Shown: in pieces, positions 4,890-34,106 of the stretch
Layout of the letters: every line of letters begins with the position of its first letter
Numbering within the stretch: the stretch's first letter is position 1
Origin: a virus
Strand: one strand, 5' to 3'
IMG/VR virus record: IMGVR_UViG_3300027896_000017
Location: 52,768 to 116,767 of that record
Length of the DNA stretch: 64,000 nt
Translations under genes and position numbers: made by a program
Notes under the pieces: generated by a model
The model's input: only the letters and a program-made list of their open reading frames with translations
Told to the model about the DNA's origin: nothing
Database searches by the model: none

Positions 4890-4896
4890 ATATTAA

Positions 4897-4993
4897 TTTA
4901 TATATTGCTAGTGTAGGATAGTCGGGAGGCTTTGAAGTGGGGGCGCTAGTTTCCATGGAGCCAAAAGTGGAATACCGATCTGCAATATATAAA
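4897..4993 (+). ncRNA. Long hairpin structure downstream of the 4140 gene
   Basis: A perfect 12-bp helix (TTTATATATTGC, 4897-4908, with GCAATATATAAA, 4982-4993) closes a 73-nt G-rich interior. Inside, TCGG can pair with CCGA and GGCT with AGCC. The interior is much more GC-rich than its surroundings. It has no open reading frame of note. It could be a 3'-UTR element, a small RNA or a protein-binding site. I could not assign it to a known RNA class. Confidence 0.45.
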
Positions 4994-5015
4994 ATAATAT
5001 AATTGTATAAAGATT

Positions 5016-5050
5016 GACAATGCGAACTTATAACTTCGCATTGTTATTAT
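5016..5050 (+). terminator. Terminator-like hairpin
   Basis: An 11-bp stem (GACAATGCGAA with TTCGCATTGTT) has a 7-nt loop and is followed by TATTAT. It probably ends transcription from the 4140 gene. The T-run is weak. Confidence 0.5.
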
Positions 5051-5051
5051 A

Positions 5052-5109
5052 GACACAATAGTCATATTTATATTCAGATTAATGAATAAAACTCAGGCTA
5101 TTATGTGTC
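5052..5109 (+). ncRNA. Hairpin just upstream of the tRNA-like element
   Basis: GACACA at 5052-5057 pairs with TGTGTC at 5104-5109, and ATAG with CTAT inside it. A further AT-rich hairpin (TTTAT...ATAAA) lies within. It may be an independent 5' domain of the tRNA-like RNA that follows. No protein-coding signal is seen here. Confidence 0.35.
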
Positions 5110-5131
5110 CCATGCTAAAAACAAAAATGGT

Positions 5132-5257
5132 CGATTTTGGTCTACAAAATCGTTATCCAAGCCCAATCACCGGTTCAAATCCGGTCTGGCTCTCTAAGAA
5201 CATCTATATGATGTTTTTAAAGAGCCGGTAGCTTAGAGGTCAAAGCGGGGTGATAAC
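5132..5257 (+). tRNA. Circularly permuted tRNA-like element (3' half before 5' half)
   Basis: A perfect T-arm lies at 5169-5185 (ACCGG, loop TTCAAAT, CCGGT), followed directly by an acceptor strand CTGGCTC at 5186-5192. Its partner GAGCCGG is not upstream but downstream at 5222-5228, followed by TA and a perfect D-arm at 5231-5246 (GCTT, AGAGGTCA, AAGC). The acceptor pairs over 7 bp with one G-U. After the D-arm, GGGT at 5248-5251 pairs with GCCC at 5161-5164, where the anticodon stem would be, and GATAAC (5252-5257) pairs with GTTATC (5152-5157). A hairpin (5199-5215) links the two acceptor strands. No CCA is encoded and no normal anticodon loop can be read. It could be a permuted tRNA, a two-piece tmRNA-like RNA or a tRNA-derived structural element. 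Confidence 0.5.
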
Positions 5258-5333
5258 AGTAAAATACGATTTGTTGTAACCATTATCTTCTATGTAGCTC
5301 ATCCTATAAAGATGATAACTATATAACTGACCG

Positions 5334-5369
5334 CCTGGGGGGAAGGGTATTCCCCCTGGGTATTTTTTT
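5334..5369 (+). terminator. Strong intrinsic terminator after the tRNA-like element
   Basis: A GC-rich stem (CCTGGGGGG against CCCCCTGG, 5334-5342 and 5351-5359) is followed by a run of seven T. It gives the permuted tRNA-like element a natural 3' end, which supports the idea that the region is transcribed as its own RNA. Confidence 0.7.
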
Positions 5370-5471
5370 ACCTTTTTTTATAAAACGTTATTTTAAGGTA
5401 TTTTATGGTATAACTATATTGGAGAGGGTATATCCGTACCTGATCCATAAACCTTTTTCCAGGGAGTGTAT

Positions 5472-5654
5472 ATGAATCCGGTTACAGCGCCCGCAGGAGC
5501 ATTTGGTAAGGAAGTTATCAATAGCGTCATTTTTGGCGCTATCGCAGGAATTCTGATGGGGGTCACAGGGAGTGTCGTGACCAAAGCTTTGCAGCCCAGG
5601 GTTGACAAAGCAAATCAGGCCACCGGCAAGCCCGCCGGTGATACCAAGAATTAA
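5472..5654 (+). CDS. Small membrane protein (one predicted TM segment)
   Basis: The ATG at 5472 is chosen over an in-frame GTG at 5466 because AGGGAG (5461-5466) sits five bases upstream. The 60-residue product has an Ala/Gly-rich hydrophobic stretch (VINSVIFGAIAGILMGV, about residues 16-32) and a polar, Lys-rich C-terminal tail. One TM helix with a charged tail fits a small holin-like or membrane-associated phage protein, but nothing links it to lysis here. It stands alone between two terminators. The frame has balanced codon use and is preferred over the overlapping minus-strand frames. Confidence 0.6.
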   Translation: MNPVTAPAGAFGKEVINSVIFGAIAGILMGVTGSVVTKALQPRVDKANQATGKPAGDTKN

Positions 5655-5670
5655 TTGGGTGCTGTTAATG

Positions 5671-5703
5671 AAAAGCACCAGAAGAAATTCTGGTGCTTTT
5701 TTT
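5671..5703. terminator. Bidirectional intrinsic terminator
   Basis: A 13-bp stem (AAAAGCACCAGAA with TTCTGGTGCTTTT), GAAA loop and T-run lies between the converging genes at 5472 and 5726. The A-run on the other side lets it work for both strands. Confidence 0.8.
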
Positions 5704-5725
5704 ACTTAATCTTTTTTTTTACTTA

Positions 5726-17000: not shown

Positions 17001-20000
17001 ATGGGCGATAAATATAAAGTTAAAAAAGACGATCTTCGTGCTTTATTTTCCACAGCCGACATGCTCATGGAAAACCGCTATCACGGCCTATATGAAAAAT
17101 TTGGCTGGAAAAAGGGTTCCAATGGGAATTATCATTGCTGGAATGTAGGCGCTCACTCAAAGGGCGCTGACCTTCATGCGTCATTGTCGGTAGATAATAG
17201 AACTGGTCTATGGCATTGTTTTTCCTGCGGTATTAAAGGCAATTTCCAATCGTATTGGAAAGAATACCTGAAAGGAAGACATGGCGACTCATATACTGAT
17301 TTTATTATCGATTTTTTAGGTTTGCAGAATAAAATAAATTTCAGCAAAGAACTTAGCGATCCAGACTATGAAAAGAATTCAAAACAGATATGTGAACTAT
17401 TTGACAGGCTTCAAACAGAAAGAGTAAAAGAGCGCGGTAAGCCTATGATGTTGTCGAGCAGCCTTACAGAAATAATAAAAGAGACAACATCATTACCTAT
17501 GTCTGAATTAAACGAGATGGTAGATAGATTATTGAAGGATACTGAAGCTTTAAATTATCTACATGAAACCCGCAGAATTACTCCTGAAGTAATCAAGAAA
17601 TACAAATTGGGATTAACAGACAAGGGAAAATTTATCTTTCCCCAGATCGGTGCTGATGGTTCATTAATTAACCTGAAAGCATATGATCCACGCAATCCTA
17701 ATACTGATTTCAAGTGGAGTTATCCTCATAGAGGGCTTGGATATGGTCCAATGCCTATCAATAACTTTACTCACCAAAAGATCTATTTCTTTGCCGGCGA
17801 ACCTGACTGTTATTGCGCTTTAGCTATGGGAATAGACGGGGCGGTAACATTAGGGAGTGAAGCCATGACGGACGTAGATAAGATATTTGGAGAAGATAAA
17901 GCCAAACAATTGTTTTATGGAAAAGAAACAGTTGTTTGTCTGGATGCTGACGATTCAGGAATGATCGCGTCAAAAAAGTTAGCTGATTCTCTATATAAAT
18001 ATGTTAAACAGGTTAAAATCATTAATTTTAATATATCAGAAATAAATCCTAATGGATTAGATCCTAATAAAATGATTAAGATTTCTAAAGATGGTAAAGA
18101 AAAAATGAAAAGAGCGGAAAAAGATTTTACCGAATTTATGGTAAAAAATGGGTTTGGTAAAGAAGCCATTGATATGTTTTATGCTTTAGAAAAAGAAACA
18201 ATAGTATATACACAAAATACAGACAGGACATCCAGAGAAATTTTTAAAGTAACCTTACAAGAATCAAGAATGCCAAAGTATTATAGTTTTGATGGTAGTA
18301 AGGTCATTCGTTTAGTGGCGTCAGTGGGAGATTTTGATGGAAGGGCCATTTTATATCCTAAAGAAATTGGTGTTAAATGTGGCGCAATGTGCAATCCCGA
18401 CAATGTTACGACAATGTGCAGATATTGCAAATTACCTACATTATCAGGATTTAACAAAGCTTCTAGTCAAACATTACATATTGAACGGGAGCTACCCAAG
18501 GAATTTGAAAATGATCCCACTTATATTAAAGCTACCGAACACGATATATTAGGACTTGTAGAAGTAACTGAAAATCAGAAATTACAGCAAATTAAAAAAT
18601 TGTGTCAGATTAATGACCACTGTAAAAGCGCTATTATTCAAGATTTGGCTCATGAAAAACTTTTACACGTCAGATTGGTTAAAGATATTAACGAATTTGG
18701 CGATCCTACCGATTCGGCCGGACAGACATTTACAGCTATTGATATGGACGCTTATATGGTTGAAAAGGATATTTATCCTAATCGATCTTATGAATTTGAG
18801 GCCGTTTTAACCACATCTTGGAATGGCCAGCAAAGCGTATTATTTTGCCATAAAGCCGAACCAATAGCGACTTGTATTGATACATTTAAAATGGATCAGC
18901 AGAATTATGAAATTCTGCAAGTTTTTAAGCCAAAGCCAAATGAAACTATTAAACAGCATCTTAAAAGGCGATATGACATATTCGCCAACGCCTGCGGTGT
19001 AACTGAAAGGCGAGAAATGTTTTTTGTAGAAGATTTGGTTTTCTTCTCTCCATTGCAAATTAATAATAAAAAACTTTTACCAGGAATCACCAGAGGATGG
19101 GTAGAAGCTCTTATTATTGGAGATACAAGAACATGCAAAACATTGATAACTAAATGGTTAAGAAATCATTATAAAATGGGTGATATGGTGACTGGATCTA
19201 CCGCAGTTACTCGTTCAGGATTGTTGGGCGGCATTAGAACGGGATTAAACAGACCAATGGTTTCATGGGGTAAAATACCAATGAATGATGGCGGTTTAAT
19301 TATTATAGATGAATTGAGCAACGTTGATATTAAAACGTTGATTGATTTAACCGGTTGTCGCTCAGAGGGCATTGCTTCTATTGATGGCATCGCTTCTGGT
19401 AAAGTATTAGCAAGAACCAGAAAAATAATGCTCTCAAATCCCAGGGCTATGCGTTCTGAAAATGAAAAGAATCCACCCTATGGAATTATAGGTGTTAAGG
19501 ATTTTTGTGTAAAAGATGAGGTTCTATCTCGTTTTGATATAGTGCTTATTGTTCGGGAAAGCGATGTTCCCGCAGCTTCATATGTTTCATCATATGAACA
19601 AATAAACACTGAATTTAACGAGCTTCAATGTCAGACATTGATACGTTGGATTTATTCAAGAAAACCCGATCAATATGTATTTGAAGAAGGTTTTGAAGAA
19701 GCCATCGATAAGTATATGAAAAAAATGCTTATTAAATATCATGAATCCACACAGTTGGTTAATCAGGAAATGCGAGCTAAATTAATGAGAATGTCTATGG
19801 CATTAGCTGGCGGATTGGCGTCTATGCCGGAAGACGATTGGGATAAAATATATACGAAAATAGAACATCTTGATTATATAGTAGAATTTTTAGACCAAAT
19901 ATATTGTCACCCAAATATGCAGATGGACCACTATTCTAAGATGAAGCGGGCCTCTGAAAAATTAGGCGACATGGCTTTTATGAATAATATCTGTAAATAC

Positions 20001-20387
20001 ATAGATATTAATCAACTCATTTACGATGATGATTTTACTGAAAAACATATACAACAAATGTTTTATGACTATTTGGAGCGAGTGCAAACAAAAGATTTAT
20101 ATATTCCCGATGTTAATAATGTTAAATTGCAGAGTATAGGACTTAAGATATATGAAAGTACCCCTAAACTTATCAATCTGCTTGTATCAAAAAATTGTTT
20201 TACCAGATCCAAAAAGGGTACTTATAGAAAAACTAAACAATTCAACATATGGTTATTAAAAAGATTGGAGTTAGGTAATGAAGCCCCTACATCCAATATA
20301 CTTGAGTGTGTCAAAAATCAACAAAACTCTATTATCATTGAGGCTACAGAGAGATTTGGACGACCTGGTAGGCAAAATTCGATCTAA
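17001..20387 (+). CDS. DnaG-type primase fused to MCM-like AAA+ helicase
   Basis: The 1128-residue protein starts with a primase zinc-binding domain (C46, H52, C73, C76, with the HCFSCG motif). A TOPRIM domain follows, with catalytic Glu267 (GEPD) and the CLDADDSG motif (D315, D317). A middle part holds four Cys (CGAMC...CRYC, about 456-474), perhaps a zinc-bearing OB fold. The C-terminal AAA+ domain is MCM-like, with Walker A GDTRTCKT (707-714), Walker B IIIDE (770-771), sensor 1 KIMLSNPRA and the arginine finger LSRFD (R844). It should prime and unwind DNA at the phage fork. No DnaB-type helicase is seen in the window. The Walker A has Cys where most P-loops have Gly and MCMs have Ala. Confidence 0.87.
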   Translation: MGDKYKVKKDDLRALFSTADMLMENRYHGLYEKFGWKKGSNGNYHCWNVGAHSKGADLHASLSVDNRTGLWHCFSCGIKGNFQSYWKEYLKGRHGDSYTDFIIDFLGLQNKINFSKELSDPDYEKNSKQICELFDRLQTERVKERGKPMMLSSSLTEIIKETTSLPMSELNEMVDRLLKDTEALNYLHETRRITPEVIKKYKLGLTDKGKFIFPQIGADGSLINLKAYDPRNPNTDFKWSYPHRGLGYGPMPINNFTHQKIYFFAGEPDCYCALAMGIDGAVTLGSEAMTDVDKIFGEDKAKQLFYGKETVVCLDADDSGMIASKKLADSLYKYVKQVKIINFNISEINPNGLDPNKMIKISKDGKEKMKRAEKDFTEFMVKNGFGKEAIDMFYALEKETIVYTQNTDRTSREIFKVTLQESRMPKYYSFDGSKVIRLVASVGDFDGRAILYPKEIGVKCGAMCNPDNVTTMCRYCKLPTLSGFNKASSQTLHIERELPKEFENDPTYIKATEHDILGLVEVTENQKLQQIKKLCQINDHCKSAIIQDLAHEKLLHVRLVKDINEFGDPTDSAGQTFTAIDMDAYMVEKDIYPNRSYEFEAVLTTSWNGQQSVLFCHKAEPIATCIDTFKMDQQNYEILQVFKPKPNETIKQHLKRRYDIFANACGVTERREMFFVEDLVFFSPLQINNKKLLPGITRGWVEALIIGDTRTCKTLITKWLRNHYKMGDMVTGSTAVTRSGLLGGIRTGLNRPMVSWGKIPMNDGGLIIIDELSNVDIKTLIDLTGCRSEGIASIDGIASGKVLARTRKIMLSNPRAMRSENEKNPPYGIIGVKDFCVKDEVLSRFDIVLIVRESDVPAASYVSSYEQINTEFNELQCQTLIRWIYSRKPDQYVFEEGFEEAIDKYMKKMLIKYHESTQLVNQEMRAKLMRMSMALAGGLASMPEDDWDKIYTKIEHLDYIVEFLDQIYCHPNMQMDHYSKMKRASEKLGDMAFMNNICKYIDINQLIYDDDFTEKHIQQMFYDYLERVQTKDLYIPDVNNVKLQSIGLKIYESTPKLINLLVSKNCFTRSKKGTYRKTKQFNIWLLKRLELGNEAPTSNILECVKNQQNSIIIEATERFGRPGRQNSI

Positions 20388-21813: not shown

Positions 21814-22902
21814 ATGATTAAGGGACTTACTCATTCTGAAGATGGAGTAATGAACAAGGTTACTAAATACAAAGGTAAAATATCGACTGGGTACGCCCCT
21901 AATGAAGGGCCTAATAAGGAAAATCATCCGGTTCCAGCGGGCTTCTTTAGAATATTAAAAGAAGTTATAAAAAACCAAAGAATAGGCATGACTCAACAAA
22001 TAGTTGCAGTTAAAGATTGGGTTTTAAATGAGTCTGTTCAAAAAATGTTAGAACAAAGCTGCAACAATAATCCTCTGCCAAGAAGAATAGAAGTGGTTTG
22101 TTTATATAAAGATTTTACTGAAATGTGGGAAAGTTCATTATGTATGTATTCTGGGACTGAAGGACTTTTATGTAAAAGTCATGGTATAGGAACTTTGGCA
22201 AAATATTTAACAATTAATGGCAACGATCGAACATGGCAGCAGAAAAATTGTTTATATGAAAATTGTCCGGAATTCAAAGCTGGAAAATGCAAACCTATGG
22301 GATTGATGAAATGTTTTCCAATTATTGATATGTCTCCAAATCCATATCGATTTGAAACTAGAAGCATTAATACCATTATAGGTATCGAATCATCATTTTA
22401 TGATTTGATGACATTAATGCGAGCTGCTCATATGGTAAAACAAATAGAGGCCGGTCGTGAACTTCCATTTGATGGATTGTTTGGGGCTAAGGTTTTTTTA
22501 ATACAAAGAAAAGTTAAATCTGGTGGAAAAAATGTATTTATTACTGATATGGAACCAACCCCAGATTTTTCAACTTCTATTATGGAACCTATTAAAAGAG
22601 GATTGGCAGCTAAAGCAAAACAATCCAGAATGATAGGCGAGGCTGGATCTGTTTCGCTACTTGGTGATGCCAGTGACAGATTACTTGAAGCGTCACGACT
22701 GGCTTTAACAGATGCTACTGAAGCGGAAACTGTCCCATTAGATATAGACTCTCAACGCGAAATTGCTATCAATTTTGGATCCAATGCAGATGAGGAGTCT
22801 ACCACTCAATCTATTATTATAGAAAAAAATATTATTCCAGAAGATTTAAGTAAAAAGGCTGCTGAAACATTATTGTCTCCTTCAGCATCGCCGGATAAAT
22901 AA
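21814..22902 (+). CDS. Phage Cys-rich protein of the RDF/gp3-like family
   Basis: GGAGGA precedes the ATG. The 362-residue protein has the layout of the phage family annotated as recombination directionality factor-like (phiC31 gp3-like) or 'hydrolase or metal-binding protein'. It shows an N-terminal IKGL start, a central cysteine set (C146, C151, C159, C167; CPEFKAGKCKPMG) probably binding zinc, then a beta stretch with RFETRSINTI. A long helical, low-complexity tail follows. No integrase is present, so a role in excision cannot be assumed. In virulent phages such genes usually sit among recombination genes, as here. The stop overlaps the beginning of a large structured RNA. Confidence 0.6.
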   Translation: MIKGLTHSEDGVMNKVTKYKGKISTGYAPNEGPNKENHPVPAGFFRILKEVIKNQRIGMTQQIVAVKDWVLNESVQKMLEQSCNNNPLPRRIEVVCLYKDFTEMWESSLCMYSGTEGLLCKSHGIGTLAKYLTINGNDRTWQQKNCLYENCPEFKAGKCKPMGLMKCFPIIDMSPNPYRFETRSINTIIGIESSFYDLMTLMRAAHMVKQIEAGRELPFDGLFGAKVFLIQRKVKSGGKNVFITDMEPTPDFSTSIMEPIKRGLAAKAKQSRMIGEAGSVSLLGDASDRLLEASRLALTDATEAETVPLDIDSQREIAINFGSNADEESTTQSIIIEKNIIPEDLSKKAAETLLSPSASPDK

Positions 22903-22906
22903 TAAA

Positions 22907-23462
22907 TTTTGCATAAGATGTTTTTTTTGTTCAACGTTTCGTTGGATAGTGAAAGTATAATCGATCGTCACGACTGGGACGCATCTAATAAAGTTAAATC
23001 GACACCTCATCTAAGACGCTGCCTGCAGCTTTCTTATCTGAGGGTACGATTTAATTTTATTAGATGCTATCGTGACTAGCTGTATTCGGGAGGATGGCCA
23101 TTGCACACGTTATATTTTTTAGCTCGAAATCAATCGCAAAGCCCCGTCATAGTTCTAAACTGGCTTTCGACAACGTTAGGACCTCTTCAGAGGTAATCTC
23201 ATACATAGTGATCTATGTATGAGATTCCTCCGAAAGGTCCAAACGTTAGTCGTCGCCGGTATTAGAACATGACAAGCTTTGCGATTGATTTCAGTGCTGC
23301 AAAATATAACTAACGGCTCGCACTCACTAATAATCTGAATCCGATCGATCAATCGAATGTGATCTTCGACATGATCGAACAGCTTCAGATTATTCTGGGT
23401 TCGTGTCGAGCCTTGCAACTGAGCCATCCTCCAGTCATTTAATCAATCTTAGTTATGCAAAA
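22907..23462 (+). ncRNA. Large ornate structured RNA A (about 556 nt)
   Basis: The ends pair (TTTTGCATAA, 22907-22916, with TTATGCAAAA, 23453-23462), enclosing a nest of helices. These include a 21-bp helix (22981-23001 with 23047-23067, one G-U) inside GTCACGA/TCGTGAC (22967-22973 with 23070-23076). A 10-bp helix pairs 23089-23098 with 23423-23432, a perfect 16-bp helix pairs 23126-23141 with 23277-23292, and GTTCTAA (23152-23158) pairs with TTAGAAC (23262-23268). GGACCT/AGGTCC (23179 and 23235) encloses a 14-bp hairpin with TGAT loop. GGCTCG/CGAGCC encloses an 11-bp helix (23329-23339 with 23384-23394). No protein frame is convincing. Size and complexity recall ROOL or GOLLD RNAs of phages, but homology is untested. 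Confidence 0.85.
22930..22946 (+). repeat. Palindrome 1 of 4 with YTT centre
   Basis: TTCAACG-TTT-CGTTGGA forms a short hairpin or DNA dyad at the start of structured RNA A. A TATAAT follows at 22956-22961. Related palindromes occur at 23777, 23943 and 24479. Confidence 0.55.
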
Positions 23463-23494
23463 AAAAATAAATTTATTAAAAAGGGAATATAATT

Positions 23495-23761
23495 ATGCCA
23501 AAAAAAACATTAAGCAGAGATTTCATGAAACCAGTTAAACCCGACAATCATTTAGCTCAAATAGTTGGAAATGGACTTTTAACCAGGCCGCAGATAACGC
23601 AAAAAATCTGGAATTATATTAAATTACATAATTTACAGAAAATATCTGATGGCAGGATAATAAAACCAGACCGCAAATTAAAACCAATTTTTAACAACAA
23701 AGCTACTGTTAGTATATTTAATATGTCGAATCTTATTAGAAATCATTTTGAAATTATTTAA
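23495..23761 (+). CDS. SWIB/MDM2-domain protein
   Basis: The 88-residue protein is essentially one SWIB domain: LSRDFMKPVKPDNHLAQIVG, then LLTRPQITQKIWNYIKLHNLQ, DRKLKPIF and VSIFNMSNLIRNHF, which is the family's full motif series. SWIB domains bind proteins in eukaryotic chromatin remodelling and occur alone in chlamydiae and some bacteria and phages, where a DNA or topoisomerase link has been proposed. Here it stands alone between two structured RNAs, with no neighbour in the same transcript other than RNA. AAGGGA precedes the ATG. Its partner in the phage is unknown; a chromatin-like or nucleoid role is speculation. Confidence 0.85.
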   Translation: MPKKTLSRDFMKPVKPDNHLAQIVGNGLLTRPQITQKIWNYIKLHNLQKISDGRIIKPDRKLKPIFNNKATVSIFNMSNLIRNHFEII

Positions 23762-23916
23762 CATTAGAAGTATTGGGCGTTGTTTCGACGCTTGCGCTTA
23801 TATAATAAGTAGACGACATTGAAAATCATGTTTCTCACGTTTAATTGCTCACGAGTACGTGGCAATTAAACTCTAGAAACATATTTTTCAATGAGCGTGT
23901 CGATTTTTAGTAATGT
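23761..23916 (+). ncRNA. Structured RNA B (about 150 nt, long hairpin)
   Basis: ACATTA (23761-23766) can pair with TAATGT (23911-23916). Inside, one long hairpin is built from CATTGAAAA/TTTTCAATG (23817-23825 with 23885-23893), ATGTTTCT/AGAAACAT (23828 and 23875), GTTTAATTGC/GCAATTAAAC (23839-23848 with 23862-23871) and CACG/CGTG. All arms are perfect. It begins just at the stop of the SWIB gene. It may be a separate small RNA or the 3' part of the SWIB transcript. Confidence 0.75.
23777..23791 (+). repeat. Palindrome 2 of 4 with YTT centre
   Basis: GCGTTG-TTT-CGACGC is the counterpart of the palindromes at 22930, 23943 and 24479. A TATAAT follows at 23801-23806, at almost the same distance as in copy 1. 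Confidence 0.5.
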
Positions 23917-23942
23917 CAAAAAAAAGCAATATAGTTAAAAGT

Positions 23943-24092
23943 GCTAGATGTTTCGTCTAGTATGATTTTCTCTAAAAAAAATATAGGGAAAACCCCAATA
24001 GGCTCATCCAAACCCGTGCGGATTTGGATTCGCCCCTTAATTTTACACATTCAATATTAAGTATATTGCTTTAATTAGATGAAAGGAACACA
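23943..24092 (+). promoter_or_regulatory. Structured 5' leader of the 24093 gene, with palindrome 3
   Basis: The leader opens with GCTAGATG-TTT-CGTCTAGT (23943-23961), the third palindrome. It then holds GGGAAAACCCC and a hairpin CCAAACCCG/CGGATTTGG around 24008-24029, followed by GCCCC, which could pair back to the G-run. The compact layout would fit a cis-regulatory element such as a riboswitch or a protein-binding leader. No known class is recognised. Confidence 0.45.
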
Positions 24093-24446
24093 ATGCCGAC
24101 ATTTAATGCAAAAGTTTTATGTCACGCAGTAGTTAAAGTTAATGATGGAGTAGATCCTATTGAATTTATTAAAAATAACAATGAATATATCGTTGAACCG
24201 AAAAATGCGGATGGTTGCATTGTTGCATTTAAACCAAAAGAAGTTAATATTTTAAAAAGAGGTGAACTAACAGATGATAAACTATCTGATAAATTAGATC
24301 AATTTATCCATTTCTCATTTAGGGGTTCTTTAATTTGCGTTGATACTATTAATAGAACCGTAATTAGTTCTGGAAAAGCCAAGCCTGAAGAAATGACAGG
24401 ACCTAAAGAAAAGGGTTATTGGCCATTAAATGTAGAAACATCTTAA
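24093..24446 (+). CDS. Uncharacterised 117-residue protein between RNA elements
   Basis: AAAGGA precedes the ATG. The product is a small soluble alpha/beta protein (VKVNDGVDPIEFIKNN, DGCIVAFKPKEVNILKRGE) with no Cys-rich motif or membrane segment. I do not recognise it. Its only neighbours are the structured leader upstream and structured RNA C, which starts within about 15 bases of the stop. A link to the RNAs, for example as a binding protein, is possible but unsupported. Confidence 0.7.
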   Translation: MPTFNAKVLCHAVVKVNDGVDPIEFIKNNNEYIVEPKNADGCIVAFKPKEVNILKRGELTDDKLSDKLDQFIHFSFRGSLICVDTINRTVISSGKAKPEEMTGPKEKGYWPLNVETS

Positions 24447-24458
24447 ATAAAGAAAAAG

Positions 24459-25026
24459 ATTAATACAAGATTGTTTTGGTCAACGCTTCGTTGACTAGAT
24501 AAATAATATAAACAATAGTTTAGACTCTCACGACCACTACCGGCGACCGCTCCTTGCATCAAAGGGCGTCACAAAATATTAATTGAACGTATTCACCAAC
24601 GCTACGATGCTCCACGATCTACGTGTATGTCAGGTAAACCTGAAATACACTACGACTCGTTGCGCATCTACGCTCTCGATAGCCATTGAATATATCATCT
24701 TCTTGCGCTCATACGCTTACGCGATGGCTTAGAAGATGATACGAGCCTCGGTTTCATATCACTAAAGTTATATGAAACCTCGGTATGTCAAATGGCTATC
24801 ATCGGGGTTCTACGTTCTCACCTGCACAGCCTTCAGTATCCTATCTCATAGCATAGCAATCCTCCACCTCTAAGAGGTGTTTGATTGCCATGCTTACACA
24901 TTCGATAGGTCTTCCGGCTGTGTCGTGAACATTAATATTAAGTGGCGCTTTGAGACCTTTGATGCAAGACGCTTCCGCCGTACGTGGTCGTTCAAGTTAA
25001 ACTATATCAAAATTAGTTGTATTATC
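24459..25026 (+). ncRNA. Large ornate structured RNA C (about 565 nt)
   Basis: AATACAA near 24462 pairs with TTGTATT near 25017, and ATAGTTTA (24515-24522) with TAAACTAT (24998-25005). Further in come CGACCAC/GTGGTCG, CGGCG/CGCCG, a perfect 13-bp helix CTTGCATCAAAGG/CCTTTGATGCAAG and AATATTAAT/ATTAATATT. Interior arms include GTGTAT with TCAGGT/ACCTGA, GATAGCCATT/AATGGCTATC, TATCATCTTCT/AGAAGATGATA, GGTTTCATAT/ATATGAAACC, ACAGCC/GGCTGT, ATCCTATC/GATAGGT and CATAGCAAT/ATTGCCATG. Length, closed ends and multi-arm centre mirror RNA A, although the primary sequence differs. No protein frame is convincing. Confidence 0.85.
24479..24495 (+). repeat. Palindrome 4 of 4 with YTT centre
   Basis: GTCAACG-CTT-CGTTGAC is a perfect 7-bp dyad near the start of structured RNA C. 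It shares the CAACG-YTT-CGTTG core with copy 1 at 22930. Confidence 0.55.
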
Positions 25027-25550: not shown

Positions 25551-27686
25551 ATGGATGTCGTATACGGATTGGTCGGCGTTGATTGTGAAACTACTGGACT
25601 TAATTATCAAAAAGATGAAATATTAGAAGTTACAGCCATTGAATTTAATGAATATGGACAAATTGGTAAAACCATATCTCAATTGTGTAAGCCAATGAGC
25701 GGATATATATCTCCTGAAGTTTCAAAAATAAATGGCATTACTTATGATATGGTAAGGGAATGTCCCAATTATTTAACTGACGGTATAAGAGATAAAATAT
25801 CTGAATTTATAGGGTCAAGAACCGTGGTCGGGCATAATGTTATAGAGTTTGATTCTAAATTTATGAGAATAAATTTTAAAAAAGCTTATGATACTCTTTT
25901 AATGTGCAGATCAAAATTTAGTGGTGGAAACAAATTAAAAACAGCTTGTTTAAGGGTAAATATTAAATGGGATGATAAAGAATCCCATCGTTCAGAATAC
26001 GATGTTAAAAAATGTATAGAATTATATTGTAAATTAAGGGAAATGGAAGAAAAGGAAAAAGCCAAAAAATCCGCTACCCCTTTATTTGCTATACCGGCCG
26101 AAGTGCAGGCCGTTTATAATAACAATCAAGAAATAATAAAAGAAACTATCGATTTGGATTCTTTAAATGATGTAAAAGTCGGCGTTATTTTAAATGAATC
26201 TGATAAAAAATTATTTGCTACTCAAACATATTCTTATTCGAGATTAAATCTGTTTAATCAATGCGCATTTAAATGGTATATGCAATATATAAAAGGATTC
26301 ATAGAGCCTGAGCATGATTATTTTGTTACTGGCAAAATATGTCATAAAGTGGCGGAATGGACTGGTGAATGGTGCTATAAAGAAACTTTTAAAAATAAAA
26401 TGGAAATATTTTTAACTCAACGTAAAATCAATTTTCAAGATGTTGTTTTACTTGAAGCGCTAGCCAAATTATATAATAAAAAAAATAAGGATATTACAGT
26501 CAGAGATTTTGCTGAATATGTAGCTAAAACACCTGGCGTGGTACCGACGTATTTTCCTGATATGAAAAATATAGGAGAATTAATTTATACAATCGATAAA
26601 TCAATACCGGAAAACTCCTATGAAAGACTATCCATGCCGGATTTGTATACTTATAATAAAATAATAGAAAATGCTATTAATTACTATAAATGCACTAATC
26701 CGGAAATAATCAATGAATGTAAAAGAATAATGTCAAGATTTTATACTTTAAAAGATTTTTCATTAACACCAGGGGATTTAACTTTAACTGAAAAAAAATT
26801 AGTATTTGATAAAGAATGGAAACCATTAAAAGATTTTTATGCTAATAATGCCTTTTTCAGAGGCGTAATCGATGTGCTCAGTTATTTTGGGGAGTATGTC
26901 ATTATAACGGATTATAAAACTTCTAGAAAAACCATGAATATTGAACAGTTAAAAGAAGATAGACAAACAATGACTTATGTTCTTTTAACTTATATGTTTT
27001 TGCCGCGAGGGAGTTTTAAAAAGATTATTGTAAGAATTGAATATATTAGATTTGGTGAAACTGTAGAATATGAAATAAATAATCCACAAGAAGTCGTGGA
27101 CAGGGCATTACAATGGATTAACGATTCAATACAATCCATTGAAAAAGAGATGCTTAAAACTGACGGTACGGCTTTTATGCCTAAACGAAATGAATATTGT
27201 CATACCTGTTATCTTGGGGAAGATGGGAAGTGTCCATTATTTAATAAACAGATTGCAGGAAAATTAAATGACCCTTTTTCATGTTCAGTTTCAACAATAG
27301 ATGAATGCAAAGCCGCGTGGAAACGTATAGAAACCAATAAGGCTGAATCTTCACGTTTAACGAAGCTTTGTAAAACTTTTGTTGAACAATGTGAAAATCC
27401 AATTAAAATAGATGACAATGCTTTGTTGGATTTTTATGCTGCAAAATATCGAGAATATGATGTTGAAAAAACCCTTAATTGGCTGCTTGGGGATAAAAAA
27501 ATAGATATAACGAAAATTATTAAATATATCGGCATATCCGGAGCTGAAATTAAAAAACTTATGGAAGATGAAAGAATAGATATAACCCCAGAAGAATTGA
27601 ATAACATTTCTAAAGTTAAACAAAAAATGATATTTGATGCGCTAGTTCCTGAAGAGATTAAAAGAAACGACATTAAAAAAGCATAG
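25551..27686 (+). CDS. DnaQ-like 3'-5' exonuclease fused to Fe-S RecB-family nuclease
   Basis: The 711-residue protein has an intact DEDDh exonuclease domain at residues 5-160: D11 and E13 (DCETTGL), D101 (HNVIEFDSKF), H146 and D151 (HRSEYD). A second nuclease domain follows at about 225-565, of the PD-(D/E)XK RecB/Cas4/AddB type. It shows YSRLNLFNQC (C238), GKICH, D441 (GVIDV), D454-x-K456 (DYKT) and a Cys trio C550, C553, C561 (CHTCYLGEDGKC) that would complete a 4Fe-4S cluster with C238. A helical tail follows. The pair suits processing of DNA ends in recombination or host DNA breakdown. Both active sites look complete. No helicase is fused, so SNF2 or MCM could be partners. Confidence 0.85.
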   Translation: MDVVYGLVGVDCETTGLNYQKDEILEVTAIEFNEYGQIGKTISQLCKPMSGYISPEVSKINGITYDMVRECPNYLTDGIRDKISEFIGSRTVVGHNVIEFDSKFMRINFKKAYDTLLMCRSKFSGGNKLKTACLRVNIKWDDKESHRSEYDVKKCIELYCKLREMEEKEKAKKSATPLFAIPAEVQAVYNNNQEIIKETIDLDSLNDVKVGVILNESDKKLFATQTYSYSRLNLFNQCAFKWYMQYIKGFIEPEHDYFVTGKICHKVAEWTGEWCYKETFKNKMEIFLTQRKINFQDVVLLEALAKLYNKKNKDITVRDFAEYVAKTPGVVPTYFPDMKNIGELIYTIDKSIPENSYERLSMPDLYTYNKIIENAINYYKCTNPEIINECKRIMSRFYTLKDFSLTPGDLTLTEKKLVFDKEWKPLKDFYANNAFFRGVIDVLSYFGEYVIITDYKTSRKTMNIEQLKEDRQTMTYVLLTYMFLPRGSFKKIIVRIEYIRFGETVEYEINNPQEVVDRALQWINDSIQSIEKEMLKTDGTAFMPKRNEYCHTCYLGEDGKCPLFNKQIAGKLNDPFSCSVSTIDECKAAWKRIETNKAESSRLTKLCKTFVEQCENPIKIDDNALLDFYAAKYREYDVEKTLNWLLGDKKIDITKIIKYIGISGAEIKKLMEDERIDITPEELNNISKVKQKMIFDALVPEEIKRNDIKKA

Positions 27687-29090: not shown

Positions 29091-30902
29091 ATGATAATCT
29101 CTTTATTTAAAAATGAGGGTTTTTTAATTGAATGTGACAATGTTGATTTGTTAGCTGATATGCAGGCGGTTATGGATGGTTATAAAATAAGAAATAAACC
29201 TCAAATAGTGGTTCCATTAAAAGCCGGAGCTTTAATTCTAAAATATAAAGATCACGGACTCTCTATGGATAGTATTACCACAAATTCTATAAATAAATTA
29301 ATAGAAAATAATAAATTAAGAATTATTAACATTCAAAAAATTAAAGATCAATATGGAAAAGAAATAAAATTTGATTATGAATATAAGGGCAAATATACGC
29401 CAATGGCTCATCAAAAAATAATGTTTAATGCTATATATTATACCGATGCTGCGGCCATCATAGCCGATCCAGGTACGTGTAAAACAGGCCCCTATCTGTG
29501 GGCTATAGATAAAAGAATTAAAAAAGGAATAATTAAAAAGGCGCTTGTGGTCACTCTTTCAGATCTAAAAAAAAATATATTAGAAGAAATGTCTGTTCAA
29601 GTACCGGATCTTAAAGGCGTAATATTAAAAAATAAAGATCAATCTAATAAAATCTTAAATAAATTATTTAATGCTAAAAGAAGTTTAGATAAAAATATTG
29701 ATTATAATATTTATATAGCTAATTATGAATCCATGTATTCATTAGTAGATTTAATAAATTCTGATTATTTTGATATGGTAGTGCTAGATGAGGCTCATAG
29801 AATAGGATTTCCCACTTCAAGACAAACTAAGGCCATAATAGAAACTTTTGAAAATTGTAAGTTCAAATATATAATAACAGGCACATTACATGCTAATAAT
29901 ATAATGTCATTTTTTATGCCATTTAGATTTTTAGGAGCCGACACCGTGCCTTACGCTAATTATTATGAATTTAGAAGGCATTATATGTATACCGTGGATC
30001 CTAATCAATATATCTGGGTGCCGTGTTCTGGGGCTAAAGAGACTGTTAAACAAATTACTGGAAATTTATCAGTAATGTTTAAAAAAGATGACTGCCTTGA
30101 ATTGCCCCCGTTAATATATGAAAAATATTCTTGTCCCATGCATTCTAAACAAGAAAAATTATATACACAATTAAAAAATGACCTTGTTGCCGTTATAGAT
30201 GATATGTGTTCAAAATGTAATAAACAATTTAAATGCGACAATTCTTGTGAGAGTCAAATTGTGGCTAAAAATTCATTAGTGCTTTCTGGTAAACTTTCTC
30301 AAATAGCTTCAGGGTTTTATATTAATACCAATATAGGTATAGATCCTGAAAGCGGATCTGAATATAATAATAGTAATATTATTACACTTGAAGAAAACCC
30401 AAAGATGCAATTATTAATTACTACACTTAATAATATTCCGGAAGGTTCTCAAGTAATCATATGGACTAATTATATTCATGCTTGTAAGCTTATTTCTGAA
30501 GCTCTGAATAAAGCCTTTGGCGAAGAATCGTATATAACGTGTTTTGGAAATGAAGATGCTTACGATCAAGTGAAAAAGTTTCAATCATCAAAAATATCAT
30601 ATATAGTGGCCAACCCTAAAAAAATGGGAGTTGGACAGAATATTCAATTTTCTCATTATCAAATATTTTATAGTAACTCCAGATCGTGGGTTATTAGAGA
30701 CCAGGCTGAAGGTAGACAGCATAGGCAGGGTCAAAAAGAAAAAGTAACAGTTATTGATCTGATTACAGAAAATACTATGGATGAAGTAGCTTTAAAATCC
30801 TTGAAGGCCAAACAGGATCTTAATCTTACCCTGTCACAATTATCCAGAGTTTTAAAAAATTCTAAAGCAATCGATGCCATTATAAATAATCGATCTAGTT
30901 AG
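29091..30902 (+). CDS. SNF2-family DNA translocase/helicase
   Basis: This 603-residue superfamily 2 ATPase has Walker A ADPGTCKT (residues 125-132), DEAH box (233-236), motif III ITGT, and C-terminal motifs WTNYIHACKLI, VANPKKMGVGQNIQ and RDQAEGRQHRQGQKEKV, the SNF2-type motif VI. Four cysteines (MCSKCNKQFKCDNSC, about 371-385) probably form a zinc finger between the lobes. Phages use such proteins in replication initiation, recombination or remodelling of protein-DNA complexes. The motif before Lys is Cys rather than Gly, as also seen in the primase-helicase. AAGGAG precedes the ATG. It is the fourth member of an operon that starts at 27911 or earlier and continues to 31988. Confidence 0.9.
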   Translation: MIISLFKNEGFLIECDNVDLLADMQAVMDGYKIRNKPQIVVPLKAGALILKYKDHGLSMDSITTNSINKLIENNKLRIINIQKIKDQYGKEIKFDYEYKGKYTPMAHQKIMFNAIYYTDAAAIIADPGTCKTGPYLWAIDKRIKKGIIKKALVVTLSDLKKNILEEMSVQVPDLKGVILKNKDQSNKILNKLFNAKRSLDKNIDYNIYIANYESMYSLVDLINSDYFDMVVLDEAHRIGFPTSRQTKAIIETFENCKFKYIITGTLHANNIMSFFMPFRFLGADTVPYANYYEFRRHYMYTVDPNQYIWVPCSGAKETVKQITGNLSVMFKKDDCLELPPLIYEKYSCPMHSKQEKLYTQLKNDLVAVIDDMCSKCNKQFKCDNSCESQIVAKNSLVLSGKLSQIASGFYINTNIGIDPESGSEYNNSNIITLEENPKMQLLITTLNNIPEGSQVIIWTNYIHACKLISEALNKAFGEESYITCFGNEDAYDQVKKFQSSKISYIVANPKKMGVGQNIQFSHYQIFYSNSRSWVIRDQAEGRQHRQGQKEKVTVIDLITENTMDEVALKSLKAKQDLNLTLSQLSRVLKNSKAIDAIINNRSS

Positions 30903-31226: not shown

Positions 31227-31663
31227 TAAATAATAATGATTTTCTTAAAAAGGTATTATTATTTGCTGCTGAGGAACTATATAAAATTCAATTTGATTTT
31301 GATGCACTGATGCCCCATTTAGAAGATTCTATTAAAGATAAATCTAATTGGATTTCAGATACAATAGAACAATGGTTTGAACAAGTTCAAGAAAAATATC
31401 CTAAAGAATTTGGTAATACAGCCATTTGCGATGTTAATGATGTTCCTGAATTAACTAAAATAACCGAAAATAAGTCAAAAAATTTATCAAGTAAATTTTA
31501 TAAACTTAAGATAGGTGAATGTTTTGATCTTGATAATTTTACTAAAATAACTAAAGTTATGGATGGTTGGATATACGATGGCGTTCATGGCGTGGCATTT
31601 ATACCTAAACCATACGGAGCACCAGATGATGTTGATGAAGAGGGGTTAAATCAAGATGTCTGA
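31220..31663 (+). CDS. Uncharacterised 147-residue acidic protein
   Basis: It starts with GTG at 31220 after GGGGGAAG and overlaps the stop of the HTH gene. The product is acidic and helical at the N-terminus (LLFAAEELYKIQFDF), then has a beta part (KLKIGECFDLDNFTKITKVMDGWIYDGVHGVAFIP). I do not recognise the family. The end overlaps the VRR-NUC gene by eight bases. Co-translation with a regulator and a nuclease suggests a shared role, without further evidence. Confidence 0.7.
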   Translation: MLINNNDFLKKVLLFAAEELYKIQFDFDALMPHLEDSIKDKSNWISDTIEQWFEQVQEKYPKEFGNTAICDVNDVPELTKITENKSKNLSSKFYKLKIGECFDLDNFTKITKVMDGWIYDGVHGVAFIPKPYGAPDDVDEEGLNQDV

Positions 31664-31988
31664 AGAATCAAATCTTCAATCTAAAATACTTAATGATCTT
31701 AGATCGTTTGGTAAATATTGTGAATGTTTTAAAATAATCAAAGCAAGCGATAATGGGGAACCTGATATATTTTTTACTACAATATTAACCGGTGGCGTTT
31801 TATTAGAATTAAAACGCCTAACCGGCTCTGCTGAAAAACTTCAAATATTTAAAATAAATAAACTTAATAAATGCGGAACTAAAACATTTGTATGTCATTC
31901 GTGGCAAGAATGGGTATCTATTAAAAAAATATTAAATTTAGAAAAATTTACTGTAGAATTAGTTCATAAACATAAGTCTTCGTTATAA
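31656..31988 (+). CDS. VRR-NUC domain nuclease
   Basis: The 110-residue protein is a single VRR-NUC (PD-(D/E)XK superfamily) domain. It has an N-terminal helix with Glu and Gln (EESNLQSKIL), GEPDIFF (D37), LLELKR (E51, K53) and the Q63 that usually follows. Stand-alone phage VRR-NUC proteins act as structure-specific or Holliday-junction nucleases. The start overlaps the end of the 31220 gene. It closes the SNF2-containing operon and is separated from the ubiquitin-like operon by 63 bases with a promoter-like motif. Confidence 0.85.
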   Translation: MSEESNLQSKILNDLRSFGKYCECFKIIKASDNGEPDIFFTTILTGGVLLELKRLTGSAEKLQIFKINKLNKCGTKTFVCHSWQEWVSIKKILNLEKFTVELVHKHKSSL

Positions 31989-32002
31989 TTAATTCAATTC
32001 TG

Positions 32003-32016
32003 AAATAACAATAATA
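32003..32016 (+). promoter_or_regulatory. Candidate promoter variant before the ubiquitin-like operon
   Basis: AATAACAATAATAT differs at two positions from the AATAACTATAATAG motif at 4077 and 20984. It lies 36 bases before the start of the first E2-like gene and in the only clear gap upstream of the operon. Confidence 0.4.
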
Positions 32017-32051
32017 TAGGATTTATTCCTTTTTTTAAACTTGGAGGGTGT

Positions 32052-34106
32052 ATGTATGGATTTGTAGAACCATGGATTACAGAATTACTTGATGTTCAAT
32101 TTGATGCCTATAATATTGGCGATGGATTAATCGCCAACATTGTCAGTGCTGATAATTTTGAAAGAATTTTGCATATATTTTTACATATATTTAGTGATAG
32201 GACCAATATTAGAAATGGAAAAAATAGTATTGAAAGGCCAATAAAAATTAGTTCGAACGTAATCGGTATGCATCTATTACTTATGAGGTACTGGATTAAT
32301 GAAGATATTCTTTACGCTTTAACAGATGGCCAAATTAAAGCCAGAGATAGCTTTGTGGCTTTTATGGAGATGCCTAATCCCAGATTTAATTTAGAACATA
32401 TTAAAGATATGTTTATTCGTATAGCTATGGAGCATAGATTTGGTTTGCGTGACGGAATAAGACTTATTAATACCGAAGAGACACATACTACTGAATTAAC
32501 AGATCAACATGATGCTATTGATGACGAGAGGGGGATTCTCGCCGAATTAAGGGATCAATATAATATTATTGATATTAATAATCCCAATGTTGGGGTTGTC
32601 CCTGACGCTTTAATTGAACACGTTCCTGTTGAACAAGCTCCTGTTGAACAAGGTATTAACATAGAACAGAAAGTCAACATGGATAAAAAACAAGAGAAAA
32701 ACGAAAGTATAAAAAAGATTTTTATTGAAGATGTAATAACAAACGTACAAAAAATATATTCTTTATATCAATTCACTACCCCCAATAATAATTGTATAAT
32801 ATGCGATCAGACCCCCAATGAAATTAGAATGAATATATTATTTGATTTGGCAGATAAATTGAATAAAAATATTATAATGACTTTACATTATAATAGTGCA
32901 TATCTTAAAATAATAAAAAAAAGTTATAATACTAAAGAGGTCGAACAGCACACATTGTTTATTGATACATGCCCTATATATTCTTCTGAAGAAAAGAAGT
33001 TTGTAAAATTGGTTAAAAATTCATATACTATATGCATGGGTACAATGACAATGCAGCCATTATTGGTATATGGAACGGATGTTAATAATGATGTTAATCT
33101 ATTATACAAAAGTCATAAAACAGACGAATCTATCGAAAAAATAAAAAATGGAGAAAATTCTCCATATTATAAATATGATCAAATATTTAAAGATACCTAC
33201 ACAAATGTGGTGTGGGCTGTTAAAGATCGATGTGTTATTCACGTGCTTTGTCAGCAATGTTCTGAACGATTTATGGATACTATATTGATTGAACTCACAA
33301 AAAGAATAAATAATAAATTATCATATAAAGAATTGTTGGCAATAGATAAAGCATATTTCGACAATATGAATGCCAACAATATGGATTCATATATTAATTT
33401 CGCTTTAGAGAATTCAAAAAGAATATATGATGATATGAATAACGAGTTAAAAAAATTAAGAATCTCTTTTAACTCATATATGTCTCAAGCTATGGAAACC
33501 GCAAAAATTGCCCAAAGAATTGAAGATCAACTGTCAGCTTTTGACATGAATGGATTTGAGGCAAAAGAAAAAGAAAAGGCTATAAAAAATTATAAAGATA
33601 CCATGGGAATAGACAAAGTTAAGTGTATATGTATTGAAGATAATAAAATACATATATACACAAAAAATTTATACGTTAAAGATCCTCGAAGTAAGAAATG
33701 GCATGACATTGGAACTTTCCATATTATTCTTGGAATGCTTGGGAAATCGTATGATACCTCCAATACTATTGCTATTTTTAATACCAAATATAATGGCATG
33801 GGTATGAATAATGATTTTCAGGCGCCCCATGTATATGGTGATGGCCACGTATGTCATGGAAATATGGCCGCATCAATGGTTGAATCTTATAAGCAAAGAA
33901 ATCTATTTGAATTAATTTATCAAATCATAATATTCTTACAATCTGTTAATGTGGGAGATGCTGCCGGAGCTTATATCCATACTTGGCCTGAAGTAACCGA
34001 AGATATGGTTAAGCGCGATGAAGATGGCGCAACTTATGATGAGATTAGTGAAATAGAAAAAAAATGGGATAATCAACTGGCGGAAGCGTTGCCAATTCAC
34101 ATATAA
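32052..34106 (+). CDS. Large E2-like (UBC-fold) protein, first gene of ubiquitin-like operon
   Basis: This 684-residue protein has a C-terminal domain (about 500-650) with the E2 active-site pattern APHVYGDGHVCHG, placing the thioester Cys at residue 601, and ends the domain with YIHTWPEV. Eukaryotic E2s have the comparable HPNVY..G.VCL. The N-terminal 130 residues are helical, then an acidic linker with a PVEQ repeat, an alpha/beta middle domain (about 230-380) and a coiled coil (about 420-500). These extra parts are unlike ordinary 150-residue E2s and may recognise substrates. Neighbours are a second E2-like protein, JAMM protease, E1 and ubiquitin-like protein. The E2 call rests on the Cys motif and operon. 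Confidence 0.7.
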   Translation: MYGFVEPWITELLDVQFDAYNIGDGLIANIVSADNFERILHIFLHIFSDRTNIRNGKNSIERPIKISSNVIGMHLLLMRYWINEDILYALTDGQIKARDSFVAFMEMPNPRFNLEHIKDMFIRIAMEHRFGLRDGIRLINTEETHTTELTDQHDAIDDERGILAELRDQYNIIDINNPNVGVVPDALIEHVPVEQAPVEQGINIEQKVNMDKKQEKNESIKKIFIEDVITNVQKIYSLYQFTTPNNNCIICDQTPNEIRMNILFDLADKLNKNIIMTLHYNSAYLKIIKKSYNTKEVEQHTLFIDTCPIYSSEEKKFVKLVKNSYTICMGTMTMQPLLVYGTDVNNDVNLLYKSHKTDESIEKIKNGENSPYYKYDQIFKDTYTNVVWAVKDRCVIHVLCQQCSERFMDTILIELTKRINNKLSYKELLAIDKAYFDNMNANNMDSYINFALENSKRIYDDMNNELKKLRISFNSYMSQAMETAKIAQRIEDQLSAFDMNGFEAKEKEKAIKNYKDTMGIDKVKCICIEDNKIHIYTKNLYVKDPRSKKWHDIGTFHIILGMLGKSYDTSNTIAIFNTKYNGMGMNNDFQAPHVYGDGHVCHGNMAASMVESYKQRNLFELIYQIIIFLQSVNVGDAAGAYIHTWPEVTEDMVKRDEDGATYDEISEIEKKWDNQLAEALPIHI

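Follow-up and report, generated by a model that had tools for sequence, protein, structure and literature searches.

What is the 556-nt element that lies between two genes near the replication functions of a large tailed phage? The phage, known from metagenomes and only distantly related to named phages, encodes a primase/helicase, a DNA polymerase-exonuclease, and baseplate proteins. The window analyzed here (64,000 nt) is the last 64 kb of its 116,767-base virus record (G000), and coordinates refer to the window unless a record is named. The original prediction for this locus described a closed, many-armed noncoding RNA, which might be a ROOL or GOLLD RNA, a relative of these, or a new class. 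Our analysis points instead to a candidate msr-msd RNA of the retron type.

Element A Is a Stably Folded Intergenic Sequence

Element A comprises 556 nt (22907–23462, + strand) after the stop codon of a 362-aa gene (22902) and before the start of an 88-aa gene (23495), so that, as predicted, its helices are not explained by coding sequence. Its ends pair in a 10-bp closing helix formed by a1 (22907–22916, TTTTGCATAA) and a2 (23453–23462, TTATGCAAAA). Folded as RNA, the interval 22903–23494 reached −255.5 kcal/mol, compared with a mean of −134.5 kcal/mol (sd 6.05) for dinucleotide shuffles (z = −20.0), and 0 of 100 shuffles were as low. The closed, many-armed structure was thereby confirmed with exact coordinates, as was the claim that its helices are far beyond chance. 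Gapless helices of 21 bp (element positions 75–95 with 140–160, one G-U pair), 17 bp (220–236 with 369–385), and 14 bp (289–302 with 306–319) were found, together with further helices of 11 and 10 bp. The predicted lengths of 10, 14, and 21 bp therefore stand, while a helix given as 16 bp is actually 17 bp and the 11-bp helix is an addition. The reverse strand folds equally strongly (z = −21.2) and, because both strands do so, folding alone does not tell which one is used; element A was assigned to the plus strand because its conserved ends are strand-specific.

Inward from a1, the features of A follow one another on the plus strand. The G at 22917 is a candidate branching (priming) guanosine, placed as in Ec86 and in the published retron plan (PMC6868368), and is kept in 34 of 34 distinct elements, being a base that the search required. 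An msr-type hairpin with a G-UUU-C loop (TTGTTCAACGTTTCGTTGGATAG) lies at 22927–22949 and was delimited by the plan shared among elements and by covariation. The msd-like region (22950–23442), as judged from folding and the helix listing, is hypervariable and multi-armed, with nested helices of up to 21 bp. Finally, comparison of elements defined a conserved 3′ motif, TCAATCTTAG (23443–23452), which sits immediately 5′ of a2 and is the putative start of the cDNA.

A search of all Rfam families with element A gave nothing at the gathering score, and only weak matches far under the cut-offs at E values up to 10. The ROOL, GOLLD, and OLE covariance models had no match at either level, and the suggested family was accordingly abandoned; the original reading holds in that the phage carries a genuine noncoding RNA element, large and structured, which may represent a new class. 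A group I or group II intron was rejected in the absence of an Rfam match, and ARAGORN called neither a tRNA nor a tmRNA. An 83-aa antisense ORF within A was attributed to the inverted repeats rather than to a gene. The inverted-repeat ends also suggested an attC-type recombination site; this reading was set aside, since the motifs at the ends differ from the attC consensus. Beyond A's own inverted repeats, the 116.8-kb contig contains no homologous target of A of the kind expected for use in a diversity-generating retroelement (DGR) or as a donor.

Four Elements on One Plan

The predicted extent of the RNA was exact for A, which is just one of four adjacent elements (A, B1, B2, and C) spanning 22907–25024. 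The other three, all on the plus strand, are B1 (164 nt; 23757–23920, or G000 76524–76687), B2 (150 nt; 23923–24072, or G000 76690–76839), and C (564 nt; 24461–25024, or G000 77228–77791). All four share one plan: the 5′ strand of a closing helix is followed by A|G and by a hairpin whose loop reads G-NUU-C, and after a set of hypervariable folded arms come AG|U and the 3′ strand of the helix. The closing helices measure 10 bp in A, 11 bp in B2, and 8 bp in C, and that of B1 contains mismatches; all four elements have intact ends and strong folds. A fifth element was found outside the window at G000 30573–30761. This second site is kept in position in relatives (G001 144167–144383; G004 51198–51906), where it adjoins the orthologue of G000 31260–32069.

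The array lies among genes on the same strand. Upstream are a DNA primase/helicase (17001–20387) and the 362-aa gene (21814–22902), whose product resembles a recombination directionality factor (PF18897) and which flanks the same gap in relatives. An 88-aa SWIB/MDM2-domain protein (23495–23761; PF02201, 2e-23) is encoded between A and B1, and a conserved 117-aa protein (24093–24446; 55% identical in L006) in the B2–C interval. Downstream is a DNA polymerase/exonuclease-like protein (25551–27686).

Elsewhere in the window, a candidate circularly permuted tRNA was noted at 5112–5260, in the gap 4890–5725. Its 3′ half (ending CTGGCTC at 5192) precedes its 5′ half (GAGCCGG.. from 5222), and ARAGORN calls a tRNA on the joined halves for many junctions, which is a permissive test. 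Strong folding of the flanks raises the possibility that they are the two halves of a permuted intron, with no intron match in Rfam. The candidate was not found in five relatives and was seen only in a second record of the same virus.

Conserved Ends Covary in Relatives

With the flanking gene and the primase as entry points, we obtained contigs of relatives, whose arrays occupy the same gap, from the recombination-factor-like gene to the polymerase. The elements range from 150 to 660 nt, the large ones being many-armed, and those of the arrays are oriented alike with the neighboring genes. A 260-aa ORF of near-perfect repeats (SLDLGSLTSAAGLKLPT..) was also observed between elements of the G001 array (L006 7347–8129).

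A strict search for the plan covered 1.46 Mb (pieces of 12 records, with slight overlap; G006 and G007 are near-copies) and returned 44 matches, compared with 1, 1, 3, 2, and 1 in five sets of dinucleotide shuffles. Doubtful among the 44 are the match at G006 74745, which folds in an ordinary manner, and one in G008 that joins two elements. Control motifs with other loops gave 0–8 matches and those with other branch bases 3–24, the highest counts coming from A/T-rich motifs in A/T-rich genomes.

All 34 distinct elements have A|G after a1, the G-NUU-C loop, and AG|U before a2, but because the search required pairing and those bases, this invariance and the percentage of paired positions are partly built in. 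Independent support comes from the variety of pair types and from the match counts against shuffled genomes. Across the ends of the 34 distinct elements, compensating changes are abundant in the closing helix and 5′ hairpin, as the original prediction would have it: 165 two-sided changes were counted, compared with 42 in shuffles. The covariation score reached 0.971; shuffling lowered it to 0.236, and sliding the partners to 0.163 or less. Six varying pairs of the closing helix covary, and the loop of 21 of the 34 hairpins is closed by a U-G pair.

The Arms Are Hypervariable but Remain Folded

In the syntenic elements of three close phages (G003, G004, and G012), the 5′ and 3′ ends are 69–98% identical, whereas the interiors are 48–64% identical, compared with ~46% after shuffling. 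These interiors nevertheless each fold, with z values of −7.5 to −18.8 against mononucleotide shuffles. The interior of A and that of its G001 counterpart are 46% identical, which is the level of chance, and have z values of −22 and −14.

Selection acting on helices in RNA only is expected to leave more G-U than A-C pairs. In the arms of 37 elements we counted 16 G-T and 17 A-C mismatches, with no strand bias, and G-U pairs were scarce on both strands (5.1 and 5.6%). Such equality points to a structure that matters in the complementary DNA strand too, or to its production by a strand-neutral process. A separate imbalance was seen in the same arms, where C-T mismatches outnumber A-G mismatches two to one (34 and 17).

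Relatives Encode a Retron-Type Reverse Transcriptase

A retron reading of these RNAs predicts a reverse transcriptase (RT). Among the first five records, Pfam RVT_1 had matches in four, the exception being that of the window, and a scan with those RTs uncovered eight more close relatives. In nine relatives the array occurs together with a retron-type RT, an RNase HI, and one more element, 22–74 kb away. In record coordinates, RT and array are separated by 22–33 kb in G001, G002, G003, G004, G006, and G012, by ~47 kb in G011, and by 74 kb in G008.

The RT sequence matched retron RTs first among solved structures (Ec86, 1.4e-28, or 6e-36 with a profile), and the first 17 fold matches of its predicted structure, which is of middling confidence (mean pLDDT 74), were also retron RTs. 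The best PADLOC models were retron RT types XIII (6.6e-66), III-A (2.4e-62), and II-A (2.6e-58). The NCBIfam model retron_St85_RT scored 210.7 bits, a strong match that falls below the curated cut-off of 235 and thus marks the RT as an outlying clade. The NAxxH and YADD motifs are invariant in 10 of 10 RT sequences. A Cys-rich insertion (invariant C135, C138, C149, and C165; e.g., L069:10001-11077), possibly a zinc site, is peculiar to this clade.

The RT is preceded by a DHH-domain gene (below the Pfam cut-off) and followed by RNase HI, which Pfam detects in two loci (1e-24 and 1e-32), the others being recognized by eye and that of G002 being divergent; a small ORF is also present. Some 700–900 nt after the RT lies the linked element, with two msr hairpins and a 3′ motif near CGACCCCAGnCAGGTTCTG. 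Of ten RT loci, nine have a linked element recognizable by its 3′ motif; in G006, the remaining one, only the 5′ hairpins identify it. Retrons depend on host RNase H1 (PMC8989520), and this phage group seems to bring its own RNase HI. No effector of a retron type was recognized beside the RT or the array; the DHH-like gene, RNase HI, and the small ORF are not known retron effectors. Three further large phage records of 163–178 kb (L082, L083, and L085) encode distant retron-like RTs with 28–29% identity, and the search applied here detected no element close to these RTs. Because the neighborhoods of the distant RTs L081–L088 yielded one weak element match only, the arrangement is documented in this clade only.

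Neither the 116.8-kb contig of the window's phage nor the second record of the same virus contains an RT. The contig also lacks the DHH gene that neighbors the RT, and synteny places the locus past its right end, so the missing RT is uninformative rather than negative. The right end of the contig leads into the part of G001 that extends from 119 kb downward and includes the RT at 102 kb; the contig contains almost none of this part. The longest relatives measure 175–208 kb. We predict that the RT lies just past the right end, and the window's phage presumably possesses one.

The Elements Resemble Retron RNAs and May Be Served in Trans

Retron RNAs consist of an a1/a2 helix of 8–30 bp, a priming guanosine at the end of the helix, msr hairpins of 7–10 bp, and a structured msd; region Y of RT-Eco1 binds a stem of 8 bp capped by a UUU loop, and in validated retrons the RNA and the RT belong to one cassette (PMC6868368). 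The phage elements have complementary ends in this size range (~8–30 bp). Every element has A|G at the inner end of a1, whose guanosine is a putative primer, and the stem with its G-NUU-C loop corresponds to the msr hairpin (stem of 7–10 bp, loop of 3–10 nt) and is a candidate target of the RT. The msd of a retron is a single long hairpin; the phage elements contain long stems, but the large ones are many-armed. Only the RT-linked element shares a cassette with the RT, the array elements being 22–74 kb away, and for this reason we call the array retron-type RNAs in trans rather than a retron.

In a control run, a broad version of the search was applied to the E. coli Ec86 locus and returned exactly one element, the known ncRNA, which immediately precedes the gene annotated as a retron RT. 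The Rfam retron models had no match to the array at the gathering score, which is uninformative, as the Ec86 locus itself gets none.

The loop provides a further link between array and RT. Its central base is U in both the array and the RT-linked hairpins of G001 (RT-linked loop G-UUC-C), G003, G004, G006, G008, G009, and G012. In G002 the base is A in both, with array loops G-UAC-C, G-UAU-C, and G-CAU-C and an RT-linked loop G-UAA-C; the same holds in G011 (array G-UAC-C and G-UAA-C; RT-linked G-UAA-C). Such matching is what co-evolution of one RT with all of its templates would give. Since the RT tree is weakly resolved, the switch from U to A occurred once or twice, and the match counts as one or two events, not nine.

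Discussion

Taken as a whole, we consider it likely that element A and its array are retron-type msr-msd RNAs served in trans by a phage RT, and we infer that msDNA is made from them. An element would be transcribed together with the surrounding replication genes, and the a1/a2 helix would present the invariant G (22917) as a 2′-OH primer. The phage retron RT may then bind the G-NUU-C hairpin and copy the interior from beside a2, so that the 5′ end of the cDNA would be the complement of ..UCAAUCUUAG, joined to the G after a1. Removal of the template by the phage RNase HI would leave a branched RNA-DNA molecule, an msDNA whose DNA portion is unusually large and many-armed. A single enzyme could in this way serve several templates in trans plus the one beside its own gene.

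The role of these msDNAs is probably counter-defense. Retron msDNAs are known as sensors in defense complexes; in Eco8, phage SSB binds the msDNA and sets off the effector, and in Ec86 a phage methyltransferase is the trigger (PMC13158370). Structured msDNAs made during infection might occupy or confuse host defenses that sense DNA (retrons, and systems that sense SSB or ends); a phage with a varied set of its own msDNAs could swamp these sensors or keep other DNA-sensing defenses busy, and an arms race would diversify the arms. The hypervariable arms fit such a race, and no effector was recognized. The full picture, in which one RT with its own RNase HI uses many arrayed and scattered templates to yield diversifying anti-defense msDNAs, some of several hundred nucleotides and multi-branched, is put forward tentatively, as a plausible scheme that falls somewhat short of an even chance. 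The same msDNAs could instead act in phage DNA metabolism, serving recombination or replication as a donor, primer, or cofactor, or they could exclude rival phages. The position of the array among primase, recombination-factor-like, and polymerase genes favors such a role, but no homologous target of A was found in the rest of the 116.8-kb contig and no effector was recognized beside array or RT; we regard this alternative as a fair possibility, though below an even chance.

Three other explanations dispense with reverse transcription in the window's phage. The elements might be inert hairpins, relics or passengers derived from retrons, as the lack of an RT in the contig and in the second record of the virus would allow. 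We think this unlikely, given that the RT neighborhood falls off the end of the contig, that four elements keep intact ends and strong folds, and that array and RT occur together in nine relatives. Less probable still is a purely structural RNA, a scaffold or cage akin to ROOL and GOLLD that is never reverse transcribed and whose likeness to retrons is coincidental or ancestral. A large, ornate, phage-borne element with a z of −20 would suit it; however, Rfam gave no match even at E values of up to 10, conservation is confined to the retron-like ends and the arms cannot be aligned whereas ROOL and GOLLD keep their cores (PMC12286853), the arms lack the excess of G-U expected from RNA-only selection, and the loop class tracks the RT-linked element. 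Palindromes without an RNA function, whose perfection is maintained at the DNA level by template switching in replication, would account for the perfect helices, the mismatches without strand bias, and the equal folding of both strands. They would not account for strand-specific conserved ends, the U-G closing pair in 21 of 34 hairpins, the co-orientation of array elements with neighboring genes, or a loop class common to the RT-linked element, and we judge this origin highly improbable.

Retrons described to date each combine an RT with one RNA and, usually, an effector in a single cassette, and they defend bacteria. No report of phage retron arrays was found in open-licence PMC papers, and the array-in-trans architecture seems to be new. 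If the full anti-defense picture is true, this would be, as far as we have found, the first natural retron array and the first retron that a virus turns to attack. One phage RT with many dispersed templates would widen what a retron can be, and would show multiplexed ssDNA production in trans occurring naturally, from templates of 150–660 nt, which is of direct use in retron-based editing. The idea that phages, too, deploy msDNA in the arms race would also become testable; because the RT has a compact locus with RNase HI, the system is rebuildable in a laboratory strain.

Among known systems, DGRs are likewise phage-borne and combine an RT with an RNA template, but the fold match of the phage RT to a DGR RT is far weaker (1.2e-6 compared with 9e-15), its NAxxH motif is that of retrons, and A has no target repeat in the contig. 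ROOL, GOLLD, and OLE are similarly large and ornate, and the first two are phage-borne, with conserved cores and intermolecular contacts (PMC12286853); here no Rfam model matched and only the retron-like ends are conserved. The closest likeness is to Retron-Eco1 (Ec86), whose RNA has an a1/a2 helix, A|G at its end, an msr hairpin (GGATGTTGTTTCGGCATCC) with a U-G-closed G-UUU-C loop, and a G just before a2, and whose RT is the nearest solved relative of the phage enzyme by both sequence and fold. The phage system differs in having an RNase HI beside the RT, a Cys-rich insertion in the RT, and no recognized effector. Its array elements are numerous and lie 22–74 kb from the RT in relatives, and they measure 150–660 nt, compared with 169 nt for the Ec86 RNA. 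Whereas known msd regions form a single long hairpin, the arms of the large phage elements are far larger and more branched.
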